DNA of 21,266 bases. Source: a virus. Within the stretch, counting starts at the first letter, position 1, and each line of letters begins with the position of its first letter. The notes under the pieces were generated by a model, which was given only the letters and a program-made list of their open reading frames with translations, had not been told where the DNA came from and ran no database searches. Shown here piece after piece: positions 5,755 to 14,385 of this stretch. The translations under genes and the position numbers were made by a program. The stretch covers positions 1 to 21,266 of IMG/VR virus record IMGVR_UViG_3300030331_000443; one strand, written 5' to 3'.

Positions 5755-8682
5755 TTACCTCGCACGAGAGTTTTTGAAAGGAGATTTTGCAAAAGCTAGA
5801 AAGATGTACACTCCTCCATTCCCATTAAAACTACCATCTGAATTACGTAATTTAAAGCCATTTGAAAGAAAATCTAAATTACAGTTATCAGCATCAATAT
5901 TTTCCCACTGAGTCGTATTCCAAACCATCTGGTTGTTTACTTGGTTAAATGGATTTCTTACATTGTTATAACCAATCCAAGGACTGTTATCTCCTGATGA
6001 ACTTCTTTTCAGCAGGACAAAAGCTGGCTCGAAATTACAAAAGACATACGTACCATTGGCATTAGCATTACCAACGTAGGAGCCGAATTTTGAATATGAG
6101 GAAACCTCGCTGAAACACCACGCAATATAAGTGTCAGTTGATCCATTAGAACCACCATCAGAACCTACACTAAAAGTAGTAGAGGTTGGAGAAGTGTTAT
6201 TAAACCAATTAGCACTAGCACTACTTTCTGGAGAATTACTATCTAGGGTTAATCTCTTTGTATTCCCAACTCGTTCGTGATAAACAACCCAACTTGAAGA
6301 ACTTGGCCTTCTCCTAATAATTACCACTTTAGGTGCAACACCTAATCCATGACCTAAAGTTCCGTTTCCATTTGTACCTGTCCAGCCTACGACAGAAAAC
6401 CCTGCCGTTGGAGAGGCTTTTACAGTTGCTTGAATAGACCCATCAAAATTACTTGATCCAAGGGTTGAGTTTGTATTAGCCTGTCCTCCCATGCCACTAT
6501 GATTAGTACAGTAATAGTAAAGAGTAGGAGCAGAAGCAGCTACTACAATTTGTGTGAAAGCTCCACTAGATCCCGGTGTGCCTGATGTGGTAACTCCTGT
6601 TGTATATTCAGATCCACCACCATGAGTACCATTTGATGTAGTAGAGAACCTTAATGGATGTCCAGAGTTAGAACTATCAGACTGATCGAAAATATAAGTG
6701 CCACCTTCTGCAAGGTCAAGAGTTACAGCAGACGTTCCAAAATCATCGAATCTATATTTATTACCACCATCAGAAACAACTTTTACTGTATAAGTTTTAC
6801 TATCTGTTTCTCCTGCATCCCAACAAAGAGCTTGATAAGTTCTTCCTGTTTGGTTATAAGTTTGATAATTATTATAAACTCCATCACTTCCAACAGTTAG
6901 ACCATTGGAGTCAAAAGAAACTAAATAACTTGAATTTGTTACTTCTACCGAAGTGTCTGAAGGAGACAATGACTTTGTAGATCCTCTTACAGAATCATGT
7001 ACACTTGTTTTCCCATGTCCAGACTCAGGATTTAAGGCTTTATAGACAACCCAATCAGGTTGAAAATTTAATCCAGTTTGTGCATTTGTACTTTGATTAC
7101 CAGTAAAAACAAGGGTATTAAAATGTTTATCCCCTTTTAAAATTGTTGGGTCGGGTAAGTTTGATGAGCATATAGCTAACGCATTTGCTGGAACTGTATA
7201 TTTAAAATCTCCTATTCCATTTGCATCTGTATTGCCACCTGCTGTAGTTAGTCCAGAAAATGTACTATCTTGTCCAAAGTTAGCTTGATAATTAACACTA
7301 CTCCCACCAGAAGAAGAACTTACAATAATTCCAATACCTGTATGTCCTCCTGTATCTGTTGTAAAGAAAGTATCTCCTAAAGTAATTCCAGAAGTAGGAG
7401 TTGATTCATCAGAGTTGCCCGATCCATCTGCCCATTGCCCATTTTTTGAAAAATAAACTGTTGGGGTTCCAGCATCCATATCAATGTAGATGCCTACAAT
7501 ATCATCATTTCCATATCCAGCACCATGATTTGCATTTGATTCAGAACCATTAGTATTGACGTATTTTTGTCCATCAGGGCCATAATAATAAACATATCTA
7601 GAATTATTGCTTGAAGGAGATATTCCCACTTGATAAGATGAAACACCGATAAAGTTATTTTCACTTCCACCTGTTACTCTTACTTCTGCGTACCATTTAC
7701 CAGAAGTAGGAAGGAAAGTGCTTATACCTTGTCTGTTTAAGTTTCTGGCGGAACCACTTGAACCTGTAGTAAATTTTAAATTACCCTCTGCTAATGATGC
7801 TCCACTTGATGCAGGTGTTCCATACAGTCTAAATATTGCAAAATTATTAGTAGGACTATCTTTTACAGCATCGCCAGTTACGAAATTATTTGGTGTGAAG
7901 TTGTTAGAATTACCAGAAGAATCCTTGCCAAGTGTTGTTGCAGTCGTTCCAGAATTATCTGAAAAATTCAAATAAAATCCATTTGTTCCATAACTTCCTG
8001 TATATTTCTTAGGATTCCATTGACCTGTTTCTGCATTTGTCTCTCCAAAAGATGAAGGGTCAAGTTGTGATCCATCAATAAAATTAAATTCTGCTATATA
8101 ACCATTAAAGTTACCATAGGTGCTGTTAAGATTTGATCCTAGAGAGTTACTGCCGATTCTATGGTTAGTATTTAAATTGTAGTATAAATCATCATTTTGA
8201 CTTGGATAAGTTGCTGTTGACAAAGATGTTTCTTGAATACCGTTTACATACAATTTAGCTCTATCACTTGCTGTTCCCTGAGTTGTATCTACTGCAATGA
8301 CCAAATGATACCAAGCACTAAAATCTCTAAATTTTCTAGTTGTAATTAAACGTAAATTTGTACTTGGTTGCGGTGTTGAAACAAAATAAAGAGTATCATC
8401 ATTATTAAAATAAAAATTACCTTGAGAAGCTCCACTACCTCCCCCTCCAGTACTAAATATGGCATATTGATCATCTCCAATATTTCCTGGAGTATTACAT
8501 TTTTTAACCCAAACACTTACTGTAAATATCTTACGATTACCAGATGAACCAAAAGTTCTTGAAAAGTTAGAACCAGAGTTTACATCTGATGATCCTTGAT
8601 CATTTCTTACACTACGATCTACTGCATAAGCACTATCAGCAGCCCCAGAAGCTCCGACCCTTATTGCATCATAAAAACCCAT
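5755..8682 (-). CDS. Large multidomain tail fibre/adhesin: LamG, SPRY-like, cupredoxin-like, repeat modules
   Basis: In this 975-aa protein, residues about 50-245 form a LamG/concanavalin-like domain (FTVSVWVK, AWYHLVIAVD, AKLYVNG, GYIAEFNFIDG). Residues about 325-470 look like a SPRY-type sandwich (GKWYAEVRV, DIVGIYIDMD, VYFSKNG). Residues 520-620 (LNFQPDWVVYKAL), 759-857 (GLGVAPKVVIIRRR) and 865-968 (NFEPAFVLLKRS) are three diverged copies of one phage-fibre repeat. Between the first and second copies, residues about 629-737 resemble a cupredoxin, with His675 and a Cys725-x2-His728-x2-Met731 loop. The domains are typical of glycan- or surface-binding adhesins at the tail tip, so it probably decides host range. 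Its start overlaps the preceding stop (TAATG). Confidence 0.8.
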   Translation of the reverse strand: MGFYDAIRVGASGAADSAYAVDRSVRNDQGSSDVNSGSNFSRTFGSSGNRKIFTVSVWVKKCNTPGNIGDDQYAIFSTGGGGSGASQGNFYFNNDDTLYFVSTPQPSTNLRLITTRKFRDFSAWYHLVIAVDTTQGTASDRAKLYVNGIQETSLSTATYPSQNDDLYYNLNTNHRIGSNSLGSNLNSTYGNFNGYIAEFNFIDGSQLDPSSFGETNAETGQWNPKKYTGSYGTNGFYLNFSDNSGTTATTLGKDSSGNSNNFTPNNFVTGDAVKDSPTNNFAIFRLYGTPASSGASLAEGNLKFTTGSSGSARNLNRQGISTFLPTSGKWYAEVRVTGGSENNFIGVSSYQVGISPSSNNSRYVYYYGPDGQKYVNTNGSESNANHGAGYGNDDIVGIYIDMDAGTPTVYFSKNGQWADGSGNSDESTPTSGITLGDTFFTTDTGGHTGIGIIVSSSSGGSSVNYQANFGQDSTFSGLTTAGGNTDANGIGDFKYTVPANALAICSSNLPDPTILKGDKHFNTLVFTGNQSTNAQTGLNFQPDWVVYKALNPESGHGKTSVHDSVRGSTKSLSPSDTSVEVTNSSYLVSFDSNGLTVGSDGVYNNYQTYNQTGRTYQALCWDAGETDSKTYTVKVVSDGGNKYRFDDFGTSAVTLDLAEGGTYIFDQSDSSNSGHPLRFSTTSNGTHGGGSEYTTGVTTSGTPGSSGAFTQIVVAASAPTLYYYCTNHSGMGGQANTNSTLGSSNFDGSIQATVKASPTAGFSVVGWTGTNGNGTLGHGLGVAPKVVIIRRRPSSSSWVVYHERVGNTKRLTLDSNSPESSASANWFNNTSPTSTTFSVGSDGGSNGSTDTYIAWCFSEVSSYSKFGSYVGNANANGTYVFCNFEPAFVLLKRSSSGDNSPWIGYNNVRNPFNQVNNQMVWNTTQWENIDADNCNLDFLSNGFKLRNSDGSFNGNGGVYIFLAFAKSPFKNSRAR

Positions 8683-9638: not shown

Positions 9639-9671
9639 CTAACCTGTAAACTTTTTACTCATTCTACCCTC
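9639..9671 (-). promoter_or_regulatory. Seven-codon leader frame with strong ribosome binding site before the fibre gene
   Basis: GGAGG, part of the last codons of the J-like gene, lies 5-6 nt before ATG 9662-9660. That frame encodes MSKKFTG and stops at TAG 9641-9639, immediately followed by the fibre ATG 9638. Ribosomes loading here could terminate and restart on the fibre gene. Confidence 0.35.
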
Positions 9672-12600
9672 CTTTACCAAATCCGACAGCCTGATAAGTG
9701 AAATTTCTATCAATCGAAGCATTTGAGGAGTTTTTAAAGTGAACAGTAAATCCTGTCCCACTTACACTAGAAACTACAAAATAATCTCCAGATGCCATAT
9801 TTTGAGCATTGATACCAATAGAAGGTAAATTAGAATTTGCTCCTAATAAGGAAGAAGTACCAACAAAGAATGGATGAGTAAAGGTAATAGCCTTTGCACC
9901 TGCTCCGCTTGCTGTTACATTGCCTTGTTCTGTTCTTCTCTGTAAAGACGCTGTATAACCTAATTGAGAAACTCTAATATCTTGTGCAGGATCTTTACTT
10001 GTAAAATTAGTTCTAAATTGAAATCCTCTTCCTTTATAAGTGCCATTTGCAAATGTTTGAAATCCTGTATAAGTAGGAGATCCAGAACTAGGGTCATCTT
10101 GTGTAACTCTTACTAACATTTCGGCATTAACATCTGTTGCTTGAACTCCATCAAAATCTCCCCAAGTATCAATATTTGCACTTCTACTATCAAATAAATC
10201 ATTAGGGTAAAAGGCTTCTGTTAGAAAATGACGTTTAAGGTCAAGACTAAATACACCACCTAAATCTAAAGTATCTCCACCAGCAGTTCCACCAAAATCA
10301 TAAGTACCAGAAGAGCTAATGCCTCCAAAATCATCAAGAGAAGAGACAGTATCTAAATCTGTTATTGAATCAAAGTTACCAGCACCAACTAAATTTAAGC
10401 TATTCGTACCAGCGTCATAAGAAACATTAGTTTTTGTACCTTGGAATTGAGGACTATCTAAATCTTCTCTTCTTGTTTGTGCTATCAAAGGAGCAAGATT
10501 ATCTGGTAAATCAAAAACTACACTTGCTTCTCCAGAACAAAATCTACCACCATCATCTTGGAATTTTAAAATATATTCCCCTTCGAGATATGGAACTTCA
10601 GCAGTTGTAGTATTTCCAGCTAACGCTTGAATAAGGTCAACAGAGTTAGAAAAAGTCCCTGTTCCATCAGTTTTAGTTGAGTGTCTTACATAAACTAAAC
10701 CTCCATGAGTAACGTCTAAATCTGTAGATAAATTCCAACGTAATCTTACTAATTTAGAACTAATTGGTTCTGCTGTAAGTCCAGTAACATCTGATGGTAA
10801 AGCAGTTTTACCAACTGCATTAAATGTTAAATCAGCAGAAGTCGCACTTGTTTGTAATGCAGCATTATAACTGAATACTTGTATTTCATACGTTCCAATA
10901 TCACTATTGAATATTTCAAAGTCAGGAGAAGATACTGTCTGAGAAACAAAATTACCATTGTTAAATCTGTAATTAACTTGATACTGCGTGACACCAGTAA
11001 TAGGTTGCCAGCTAACGATAAGTTTAGATACAGCTTGATTATTTATTTCAACAATTTTTTCTTCAGCTTGCAAAGCTGATGGAGGATTTTTCGGGAGATT
11101 TAATATTGATACAGTTCTTGCTGGCAAACTCGCACCATCTTCAATGAAAGCATACTTAGCATTTACATAAGATAGAGCAGTAATCGCATAATTGATACCA
11201 TCAGATTCTTCTACTGTTATTACTCTGAATTTTTGAGCTTTAACTGTGTCATTCTGTAAAAGCCATCCTGAATTAACATTTGGTGCTTGAGAAAAAGCAC
11301 TATCAACTGTAATTACTGCACCAGAAATAGATTGAACACCTTTTGTCTCCATCGTTCCATTAGGGAGAATAACACTAAGAGTTGGATTATTTGTTGTTGC
11401 TAAATCAGTTGCAGCAGTATCATCTACAGTTATCTGGGTTGTTGTTGCAGCACTTATTCTTCCTCCTCTTCTAACACCAGAACGAACAGGGTCAGCTATT
11501 TCAATCACAGCACCAGGTCTTACAACAACACCTGAATCTATAGAAGTTGCAAATGCAACTATTTCACTTTCATTTTGTTCTGCAAATAAAATAGCTTTTG
11601 CTAATCTTCTAGCCTGACCTCTTGATGTACACGCAAATCCTTTTACTTGTTTAATAATTACTCCTAGCTTGGCTATCGAGGCGGTATCTTCATAAACCTC
11701 ATAATCTATCTCTCTACTATCCATGTTGAAGTAAGAAACAGAAATGACTGTATTTCTTGTTTTTAATCCACTTCCTGAATAATTAAAGCCTTCTGGAGTA
11801 ACATTAGCTAAATTAAATAAATAGCTTGCATCTTTTGGACTGTCTTGTGCAAGAAGAATACTACCAGCAGACCATATAGGCATACACCTCATAACACCTG
11901 CCAATTCATTTATCAAATCAAATGCTTCACTTGATGATTGAATATTTACATTACAACTAAATCTAGCTTCCTGTCCTCCAAAACCATCTGATACCAATGT
12001 ATTTGCAAATTTACTGGCAGTAACGAAAGAGAATAAATCAAGAGAACTTTCTGTTATATGATTACCAAATCCATAGCGTGTGTCTAACAGTAAGTCTAAT
12101 AAGACCATTGCAGGACATGAGCACCATTGAGCAGCACCCATAACACCATTGAAAATATAACCAGTGGGATAAATTATACGACCAGTAGCAGAATCAATAC
12201 TTGGTGTGCCAGAGCCACTAGCACCTGCACCAGGAATCCTTACTTTTATTCCTCTGATACGATATTTTCTGGTAGGAATTGATTGGAATTGCATAGAATC
12301 CAACCTGAGAGAAGCATAAGCACTATTGGCATAGGTATTGGAGTCATCAATAATTTCTCCAATACTTGTCCATGTGAAAGCATCTATAAGACTTGAAGTT
12401 GTACTATCAGCAGTGACTCTTGTAACTCTTATATCAACAGGAAAAGCACCTGTAAGATTTACTCTGTAATCTCTTTGGTAAGCATCAGCACTTCTACCTG
12501 TGATAGTGTCATCAATAACATCAGTAAATCCACCAGAATTGTATTGCACTGATATTTTTAATTGAACTGATGTACCAAGTAAATCTCCTTGATCTGTTGC

Positions 12601-13071
12601 TTTTTGTAGTTGAGGAAAAGTAATTGTTACATTTGCTGCATCAACATTTGAATTTGTTATCTGCCTGGTAACAGGAGAAGATTGAGTAACAGTTACGCCT
12701 ACTGCTGTAACAGAAGAACTACTTTCAATACCTTCAACTTTTGTCTGACCTGACGTACCAAAACGAGGATTAAATGTTACATCTTGAAAATTAAAATCAG
12801 TCGTGGCTGGATTGGTTGAATCAGCAGTTGATTTTAAAACAGGAGTATCATTTAGAAATACATCTTTTAGTGCAGCATTATTATATGCAGCAGTTCCCTG
12901 CGTTCTACCTTCTTTTGAAGCAGAAGCAAAACCTTCAATTTCCCCTTCAGAAATAAGATCAAGAAAAGTGGCGAACTGCCTACTGTGTAAAGTATCAGGT
13001 GCTCTAGTTGGTTGTGGTGGAGCTGGAGGAGAAGGAGGACCACCAGCACCTCTGATAATCTTTTTGGTCAT
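9664..13071 (-). CDS. J: Tail tip host-specificity protein, lambda gpJ-like
   Basis: This 1135-aa protein is the same size class as lambda gpJ (1132 aa) and sits in the J position after K and I. The start is glycine/proline-rich (residues 8-25), followed by the typical HSRQFATFLDLISEGEIEGF segment (29-48). Residues about 240-650 hold the phage tail-hub and attachment domains, including SIPTRKYRIRGIKVRIP and the helix AQWCSCPAMVLLDLLLDTRYG. Two fibronectin type III domains follow at about 664-752 and 758-855. The C-terminus (about 985-1135) is beta-rich and probably receptor-facing. It forms the central tip trimer that contacts the host receptor. Its start overlaps the I-like gene by ATGA; its end carries the ribosome binding site for the fibre leader. 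Confidence 0.9.
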   Translation of the reverse strand: MTKKIIRGAGGPPSPPAPPQPTRAPDTLHSRQFATFLDLISEGEIEGFASASKEGRTQGTAAYNNAALKDVFLNDTPVLKSTADSTNPATTDFNFQDVTFNPRFGTSGQTKVEGIESSSSVTAVGVTVTQSSPVTRQITNSNVDAANVTITFPQLQKATDQGDLLGTSVQLKISVQYNSGGFTDVIDDTITGRSADAYQRDYRVNLTGAFPVDIRVTRVTADSTTSSLIDAFTWTSIGEIIDDSNTYANSAYASLRLDSMQFQSIPTRKYRIRGIKVRIPGAGASGSGTPSIDSATGRIIYPTGYIFNGVMGAAQWCSCPAMVLLDLLLDTRYGFGNHITESSLDLFSFVTASKFANTLVSDGFGGQEARFSCNVNIQSSSEAFDLINELAGVMRCMPIWSAGSILLAQDSPKDASYLFNLANVTPEGFNYSGSGLKTRNTVISVSYFNMDSREIDYEVYEDTASIAKLGVIIKQVKGFACTSRGQARRLAKAILFAEQNESEIVAFATSIDSGVVVRPGAVIEIADPVRSGVRRGGRISAATTTQITVDDTAATDLATTNNPTLSVILPNGTMETKGVQSISGAVITVDSAFSQAPNVNSGWLLQNDTVKAQKFRVITVEESDGINYAITALSYVNAKYAFIEDGASLPARTVSILNLPKNPPSALQAEEKIVEINNQAVSKLIVSWQPITGVTQYQVNYRFNNGNFVSQTVSSPDFEIFNSDIGTYEIQVFSYNAALQTSATSADLTFNAVGKTALPSDVTGLTAEPISSKLVRLRWNLSTDLDVTHGGLVYVRHSTKTDGTGTFSNSVDLIQALAGNTTTAEVPYLEGEYILKFQDDGGRFCSGEASVVFDLPDNLAPLIAQTRREDLDSPQFQGTKTNVSYDAGTNSLNLVGAGNFDSITDLDTVSSLDDFGGISSSGTYDFGGTAGGDTLDLGGVFSLDLKRHFLTEAFYPNDLFDSRSANIDTWGDFDGVQATDVNAEMLVRVTQDDPSSGSPTYTGFQTFANGTYKGRGFQFRTNFTSKDPAQDIRVSQLGYTASLQRRTEQGNVTASGAGAKAITFTHPFFVGTSSLLGANSNLPSIGINAQNMASGDYFVVSSVSGTGFTVHFKNSSNASIDRNFTYQAVGFGKGG

Positions 13072-13694
13072 GCTTGCACCTGCTGAGTGTCAATCGCACC
13101 ACTTATAACAACTGATCCTGTAACTATCTCTCCATAAACTATTGGAACGGGAGTTCCTGCCCGTGATGTATTTTGCGTTCCAGAAAAACTATAAGATAAT
13201 TGTGGATCTTGTTCTGACTTAAATTCTTTTGGTTTTGGTACAGGAAATAACATTTCAGATACTCCTTGTAAAACAAGAGAAGCTCCTAAATAAACAGCAG
13301 CTTTACCTAAAAAAGTACCAGTAAGTCCTGTAATTGCACCTGCATTTGCTAAAGGTACTTTTGCAAAAGTAAAACCTACACCACCTGTTAAGAAAGCACC
13401 TCCAATTAAAGCAGCACCCAATAATACTTTTCCAAAACCTCCTCTTCCAGCACCAGCTATTACTGGCACAAAATGTATATCTTCTTGACCTATTGGATGA
13501 TGTATTTCTTCTTCTCCTACATCATAATTACCAACTTTAACTTGGTAATATTTAGGATTCATATATTTTTCTATCTGAGGAAAATTGTTAACAAGAAAAC
13601 TAACTGCTTTTGCAAGACTATCTACCTGTATTTCAAATTCTTTATGCCCTATAAATTCAGCAAGCTCGCCATATAACTTTAACTTACGCAACAT
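13068..13694 (-). CDS. I: Tail assembly protein, lambda gpI-like
   Basis: In this 208-aa protein, residues 1-78 fit a beta-grasp (ubiquitin-like) domain (MLRKLKLYGELAEFIG, then a helix AVSFLVNNFP and DIHFVPVIAG). Residues about 80-150 are a glycine/alanine-rich hydrophobic stretch. The C-terminus (SYSFSGTQNTSRAGTPVPIVYG) is typical of the I family. In lambda, gpI is needed for tail tip assembly but is not found in the mature virion. The gene overlaps K by 11 nt and J by 4 nt, in the lambda order. Confidence 0.85.
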   Translation of the reverse strand: MLRKLKLYGELAEFIGHKEFEIQVDSLAKAVSFLVNNFPQIEKYMNPKYYQVKVGNYDVGEEEIHHPIGQEDIHFVPVIAGAGRGGFGKVLLGAALIGGAFLTGGVGFTFAKVPLANAGAITGLTGTFLGKAAVYLGASLVLQGVSEMLFPVPKPKEFKSEQDPQLSYSFSGTQNTSRAGTPVPIVYGEIVTGSVVISGAIDTQQVQA

Positions 13695-14385
13695 AACGAT
13701 ACCTCCCTCCTGTACATTTTAATAACCATTGAGAATAAGGCTCTCTACAAGATAGTCTATCGGTTAAATGATGTAAAACATCTCCATCTAAAAAAATAGC
13801 CACATGATTTAAACCAGGAGATCCTATAGACATTAACAAAGCATCGCCATTCATTGTCTGTTCATCTGGTCTTAATTGTCTAAATCCAGTTCTCCATGCA
13901 CAAGTTTCAAATAATGGATTCAAAATAAACTCTTCTGGGGTTGTAGGTCTATCCCAATGTTTAAGTTCAATACCTTTTTCTTCCTTATACCAATCTTTTA
14001 CTAAAGACCAACAATCAGTAACACCCCAAACCCACGGACGGCCAAGTAAAGGTGGTTTGTATCCACAGGGTTCACAATATCCCCATGTTTCTGTTTTTGG
14101 ATTAACAATATGCCAAGGAAGTTTACTTTGTTCACAACTAATCTGATCTGCCTGACTAGCAACAGGAGGTGTTACGGGATGACTATGAACAATAGCTGTA
14201 ATTTCTCCAGTATTATCAGCTTTTACATAATCTTCTGGATCAAGAATAAAACACTGATGATCTGTCATGGCAAGATTACGACAAGGATAGTATCTTTCTT
14301 TTCCTCTAACATTTAATAAAAGACCACAAGACTCTTTAGGATCTTGGTCTTTCGCATGAGCAAGTGCTTCTTCTTTCCAATTCAT
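13684..14385 (-). CDS. K: Tail tip peptidase with JAMM and NlpC/P60 domains, lambda gpK-like
   Basis: This 233-aa protein has an N-terminal JAB/MPN domain with a complete JAMM metalloprotease signature: Glu18, His67-x-His69, Ser77 and Asp80. The C-terminal NlpC/P60 cysteine-peptidase domain has Cys125 (VTDCWSLV) and His194 (NHVAIF), with His205 or His206 as likely third residue. All catalytic positions are present, so both activities could be real: peptidoglycan peptide cleavage during entry and a metal-dependent cleavage during tip assembly. It is placed between the L and I homologues with short overlaps. Confidence 0.9.
   Translation of the reverse strand: MNWKEEALAHAKDQDPKESCGLLLNVRGKERYYPCRNLAMTDHQCFILDPEDYVKADNTGEITAIVHSHPVTPPVASQADQISCEQSKLPWHIVNPKTETWGYCEPCGYKPPLLGRPWVWGVTDCWSLVKDWYKEEKGIELKHWDRPTTPEEFILNPLFETCAWRTGFRQLRPDEQTMNGDALLMSIGSPGLNHVAIFLDGDVLHHLTDRLSCREPYSQWLLKCTGGRYRYVA

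Follow-up and report, generated by a model that had tools for sequence, protein, structure and literature searches.

Why would a virus carry what looks like a copper site in the middle of a protein of its tail? The question was raised by a virus record, IMGVR_UViG_3300030331_000443, whose 21.3 kb (21,266 nt) form the window, the whole stretch of DNA analysed here. The first-pass annotation had proposed that a 975-aa fibre encoded in the window contains a cupredoxin-like domain that may bind copper or act structurally; we found that both the predicted fold and the conservation of the ligands support this proposal. The features concerned are the following.

9664 to 13071: lambda-J-like tail-tip protein (Pfam GpJ FNIII-A and Phage-tail_3)
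5755 to 8682, minus strand: tail-fibre/adhesin protein of 975 aa (open reading frame; Pfam DUF7483 and SPRY; PHROG virion structural and tail fiber families)
7432 to 7698, minus strand: SPRY domain, residues 329-417 (Pfam, E-value 7e-7)
6805 to 7170, minus strand: first part of DUF7483, residues 505-626, ahead of the insertion (runs straight on into the second part where paralogues have no insert)
6460 to 6804, minus strand: predicted cupredoxin domain, residues 627-741 (AlphaFold model; Foldseek and VIA-align matches to cupredoxins; alignment of 78 rows)
5776 to 6459, minus strand: second part of DUF7483, residues 742-969, past the insertion (Pfam match of residues 740-968 to profile positions 106-330; joined to the first part in uninserted paralogues)

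The domain had been placed earlier at 6472-6798 (residues 629-737), which was nearly right; homology moved its borders to about residues 627-741.

The fibre ORF is situated downstream of the tail-tip protein, which is about 45% identical to its counterpart in the Prochlorococcus siphophages MED4-117 and P-HS2 and 84-90% identical to that of AG-345-A17, a virus from a single seawater cell. These identities make a picocyanobacterial host plausible, and the earlier guess of a cyanophage is plausible on the same ground. AG-345-A17 is the nearest relative of the window phage. It has a different fibre ORF (locus L154; 331 aa, from position 7415 of the reverse complement) with a divergent cupredoxin where H, C, H and M are kept and the loop reads C-x2-H-x3-M. 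Elsewhere in the window, the minus strand at 13684-14385 codes for a tail protein with Prok-JAB and NlpC/P60 domains, like the lambda tail protein K, and the plus strand at 344-748 for a 134-aa protein with DUF6450 (E-value 1.5e-21), transcribed divergently from the tail module.

The cupredoxin is an insertion in one loop of DUF7483; the first-pass annotation had noticed neither this nor the recurrence of the domain in virion proteins of marine phages and in cells. The Pfam model (PF24299) matched the fibre with an E-value of 2e-87 and 293.7 bits, against a gathering threshold of 27, in two stretches flanking the cupredoxin, with profile position 106 resuming at residue 740. We read this as an insertion because DUF7483 units lacking a cupredoxin occur within the same proteins and genomes. 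For example, of the three DUF7483 units in a 1600-aa protein of Synechococcus phage S-B68, only the first contains the insert; uninserted units were also found in loci L008, L036 and L040. The uninserted units join as YVAWCFNAGTGSATTNTDGSI, and the position of the insert falls inside YVAWCFNAGTGSATTNTDGSI. The cupredoxin was located directly between both DUF7483 halves at 39 loci. Many DUF7483 proteins in the phage collection had matched regions that fell short by about one insert, leaving no room for a cupredoxin; in Cyanophage SS120-1, 969 bases were matched for the whole query, which is too short for the insert. A single-sequence search with a DUF7483 half led to one locus.

To residues 627-741, given to AlphaFold along with 77 relatives, the program assigned an all-beta structure with pLDDT 88.3 and pTM 0.83. 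In the Foldseek search against the PDB copper proteins topped the list, with probability near 1 and E-values of only about 2e-3 to 2e-2. The best VIA-align match was the N-terminal cupredoxin of the H. denitrificans nitrite reductase (HdNIR), with Z 9.6 and rmsd 2.6 over 101 residues, followed by small laccases and rusticyanin; the A domains of factor VIII, which have the same fold, were also among the leading matches. The HdNIR match was repeated, with Z 9.2, for a 471-residue model (residues 505-975, pTM 0.90), whose match list was filled by the cupredoxin, so that the DUF7483 fold gave no identification there. The fold check suggested in the first-pass annotation was thus passed, as cupredoxin-fold copper proteins lead the PDB matches of a confident all-beta model. 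As modelled, the domain is a Greek-key beta-sandwich in the size range of about 100-150 residues that matches solved cupredoxins, and residues 627-741 almost certainly adopt the cupredoxin fold. Besides, in the fold search among viral models the domain was matched over about its full length by giant-virus "beta-sandwich proteins" (Pithovirus LCPAC302, Marseillevirus LCMAC201).

Sequence searches placed the domain outside the curated families. The domain alone matched no model in Pfam and NCBIfam, and phmmer found no match for it in the PDB; profiles of the domain family reached pseudoazurin and plastocyanin only at E-values of 0.6-1. The Copper-bind model PF00127 was touched weakly by 16 of the 58 diverse relatives (best E-value 0.0012), and the window domain itself did not reach its gathering threshold; we therefore do not file it as a PF00127 member. 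It also had no match to the amicyanin equivalog TIGR02657, to which a copy in phage P-HM2 scored 22.8 of the required 110.2 bits. The link to classic cupredoxins was provided by bridge relatives: the second copies in P-HM1, P-HM2 and MED4-213, the C-terminal domain of the gp10-like/gp9 proteins in Syn9 and P-RSM4, a P-SSM2 spike, and a subtilisin-like protein of S-H9-1. One of the bridge relatives matched plastocyanin 1b3i (E-value 6e-5) and another the NCBIfam amicyanin (E-value 9e-5), while hhalign aligned the classic cyanophage cupredoxin profile to the window family with a probability of 99.0 and with the four ligands in register. We also considered, and rejected, an immunoglobulin V-set domain, given the PF07686 label in P-HM1 and P-HM2 and weak antibody matches; these appear to be due to a "YYC" strand, and the fold matches are cupredoxins.

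The segment GHPLRFS begins at residue 674 and CTNHSGM at residue 725, so that, in sequence, the four predicted type-1 copper ligands are present at the residues at which they had been reported.

6658 to 6660, minus strand: His675, first predicted copper ligand (100% in 27 clusters)
6508 to 6510, minus strand: Cys725, predicted thiolate ligand and the only Cys of the domain (100% in 27 clusters; lone Cys in 154 of 157 copies)
6499 to 6501, minus strand: His728, predicted ligand (100% in 27 clusters)
6490 to 6492, minus strand: Met731, predicted axial ligand (96%, or 26 of the 27 clusters; Gln in one)

The first His and the Cys are 50 residues apart, and the order H...C-x(2 or more)-H-x(2 or more)-M/Q found in the domain is that of a type-1 copper site. 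The loop is C-x2-H-x2-M, which had been likened to pseudoazurin; this comparison did not hold. Such a spacing is that of amicyanin, while pseudoazurin has C-x2-H-x4-M, as does plastocyanin 1b3i in our alignment; plastocyanin is a small blue copper protein that works in photosynthesis.

We assessed conservation on 161 near-complete copies taken from records of viruses, bacteria and phages; of these copies, 157 had residues at all four positions. The four read HCHM in 156 copies and HCHQ in one, a count to be seen in view of the fact that loci were fetched partly via patterns built on the segments HSGMGG and HPLRF, a procedure that favours copies with ligands; the set of 49 phage records was retrieved by tblastn with the entire domain. 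The C-x2-H-x2-M loop was present in 156 of the 157 copies, and the first copy of all 18 named phage loci kept the four ligands. Clustering at 60% identity gave 27 clusters with a mean identity of 40%, among which the median column was conserved at 48%; the conservation check suggested in the first-pass annotation was strongly passed, His675 and Cys725 being retained in all 27. The one natural M-to-Q change at the axial position (locus L112) is telling, since some type-1 sites, such as that of TsNirK, are known to have Gln as their natural axial ligand (PMC6400189). A chance motif is ruled out by the ligand conservation together with the predicted cupredoxin fold. With one Cys per domain an internal disulfide does not explain the conservation of the Cys, and a disulfide role for Cys725 was rejected.

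Some copies have no ligands: the second copies in the Kyanoviridae proteins L141, L146 and L147 and one copy in L134 (Nonlabens). The existence of such copies means that the cupredoxin fold needs no ligands; since they keep the fold, the fold does not by itself account for the ligands kept elsewhere. In L141, L146 and L147, virion proteins of about 1360 aa, the ligand-less copies (approximately residues 780-1040) are apparently split by an inserted segment.

The insert was also compared with its surroundings. In 40 inserted units the mean amino acid identity was 75% for the cupredoxin, a value biased somewhat upward by retrieval through cupredoxin similarity, versus 42% and 43% for the DUF7483 halves. 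At four-fold sites the identities across the cupredoxin and the halves were 0.46, 0.48 and 0.39, with 0.38 expected by chance. This difference in amino acid identity at similar, near-saturated synonymous sites indicates that the insert is under strong purifying selection, not merely recently exchanged. As the synonymous sites are near saturation, recent swapping of modules cannot by itself account for the conservation.

How common is such a module? We found related modules in at least 599 stretches of viral contigs and in 49 phage records, all of marine phages wherever a host or source was given, with Synechococcus, Prochlorococcus, Pelagibacter and Methylophilales as hosts; the fold search gave 61 viral predicted structures matching at an E-value <0.001. 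The carriers are fibre, baseplate and protease proteins of cyanophages, pelagiphages and methylophages. The remark that a metal-binding domain on a fibre is unusual is thus true of phages generally but not of marine phages, where the module is widespread. Among the matches in bacterial records, some have the look of phage or prophage sequence; the module also occurs in giant surface-like proteins of Prochlorococcus and Bacteroidetes. Two SAR86 genomes have a stand-alone lipoprotein-like cupredoxin (L106, 4764-5312; L118, 4815-5348), in which a signal peptide and a lipobox were recognised by eye; in both, the gene is followed by that of a protein of about 970 aa without a Pfam match, in a chromosomal context with fatty-acid genes and with no copper genes among the neighbours.

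Several phage proteins combine the module with other domains. In the structural-region protein of P-HM1 (L143, ORF from 2641, residues 122-790) a subtilisin-like segment, recognised by eye from GHGT and GTSFS, lies between two cupredoxins, and L139 and L150 have a similar arrangement; proteins of the L143 type are annotated just as hypothetical or PF07686. The protein of S-H9-1 (L158, 713-2719), annotated as a subtilisin-like serine protease, has a C-terminal cupredoxin with C-x2-H-x2-M. The T4 gp10-like/gp9 baseplate connectors of Syn9 (L155, 1457-2677) and P-RSM4 (L156, 1445-2677) have a classic cupredoxin with the full ligand set at their end.

The explanation that we favour, and hold to be probable if by no means assured, is that of a cupredoxin with an intact type-1 ligand set, filled with copper outside the cell and serving as a metal-stabilised adhesin module. 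The domain was inserted into a permissive loop of the tail-fibre domain DUF7483; once released, the virion would acquire a single copper for each domain while outside the cell, and the occupied site would rigidify a module that helps the fibre to bind the host surface, with no electron transfer required. The site very probably binds copper, whether in seawater or at the envelope of the host. Zinc or another metal is hardly to be expected: Cys/His sites can take zinc, and cupredoxins produced in E. coli often do so, but His2-Cys-Met with a conserved thioether and Gln as its sole alternative is the pattern of type-1 copper. An unlikely reading is that the cupredoxin is a structural relic, a spacer or receptor-binding scaffold with the ligands kept for packing and no copper in nature. 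Ligand-less copies beside ligand-bearing ones in the same proteins indicate that the fold tolerates loss of the site; the same copies, though, imply selected retention elsewhere, with H, C and H at 100% and M at 96% in spite of a mean identity of 40%, and a conserved lone Cys with no disulfide partner would need explaining.

What a filled site would do is a separate matter. Given the site, we lean slightly toward a role that is mainly structural or adhesive, its adhesive side being suggested solely by the location of the domain, over redox chemistry or the targeting of copper receptors. The fibre copper could target copper-handling proteins of the host surface or exploit the metal need of the host, in analogy to the "Ferrojan horse" proposed for iron; the module is widespread in phages of trace-metal-limited marine hosts, and metal-bearing fibre tips have been proposed for iron (PMC11705849). 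Yet the module is shared by phages of very different hosts, occupies several virion positions and occurs in cell proteins too, which makes such targeting decidedly unlikely. Still less probable is a copper centre that exchanges electrons at the host surface or shields the virion from reactive oxygen species. The ligand set is indeed that of electron-transfer cupredoxins, and the tethered type-1 domain of HdNIR accepts electrons (PMC7201279), but no partner oxidoreductase was recognised in the window and the tail is located outside the cell.

The cupredoxin fold and the type-1 site are already known; their location in a phage fibre is apparently undescribed. A search of the open-access literature gave nothing on point about cupredoxins in phage tails, virions or cyanophages, the nearest published idea being an iron-bearing fibre tip (PMC11705849). 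Modules of this kind are common on the tails of marine phages, so that many viruses of the ocean may bear copper atoms on the parts that touch the host. Were the sites filled, these phages would represent a pool of protein-bound copper that goes uncounted, and phage attachment to cyanobacteria and SAR11, hosts for which copper is scarce or toxic, could depend on copper. Whether such virions contain stoichiometric copper is a testable question. A wider view, possible but doubtful, is that marine tailed phages, differing in morphology and with hosts from several phyla, bear functional type-1 copper centres on fibres and baseplates, that these centres have spread as a plug-in module, and that their filling with copper controls adsorption or takes advantage of the way in which the host handles copper. 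The analysis also supplies an annotation for a domain unnamed in Pfam and NCBIfam.

Among known systems, the N-terminal cupredoxin of HdNIR (2dv6, 6tfo) is the best structural match and likewise a type-1 copper domain (PMC7201279) tethered to another protein. It differs by an identity of 18%, an enzyme context, an N-terminal fusion rather than a loop insertion, and a non-viral origin. The T4-type long tail fibre tips share with our case metal-binding residues in a phage fibre, but these are His-X-His at the receptor-binding tip, with iron instead of copper and no cupredoxin fold (PMC11705849). DUF7483 (PF24299) is the host domain of the insertion, and many of its units have no cupredoxin.

Amicyanin, plastocyanin and pseudoazurin (PF00127, TIGR02657) have the same ligand order, His...Cys-His-Met, and are matched weakly by the classic cyanophage relatives. 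Amicyanin agrees with the window domain in loop spacing as well, while plastocyanin and pseudoazurin do not, and the window domain scores under every curated cut-off. The C-terminal domain of the Syn9 and P-RSM4 gp10-like/gp9 proteins is terminal on a baseplate connector, shorter and more plastocyanin-like; still, it belongs to a cyanophage virion protein, has H and C-x2-H-x2-M, and matches the window family at the profile level (99.0).
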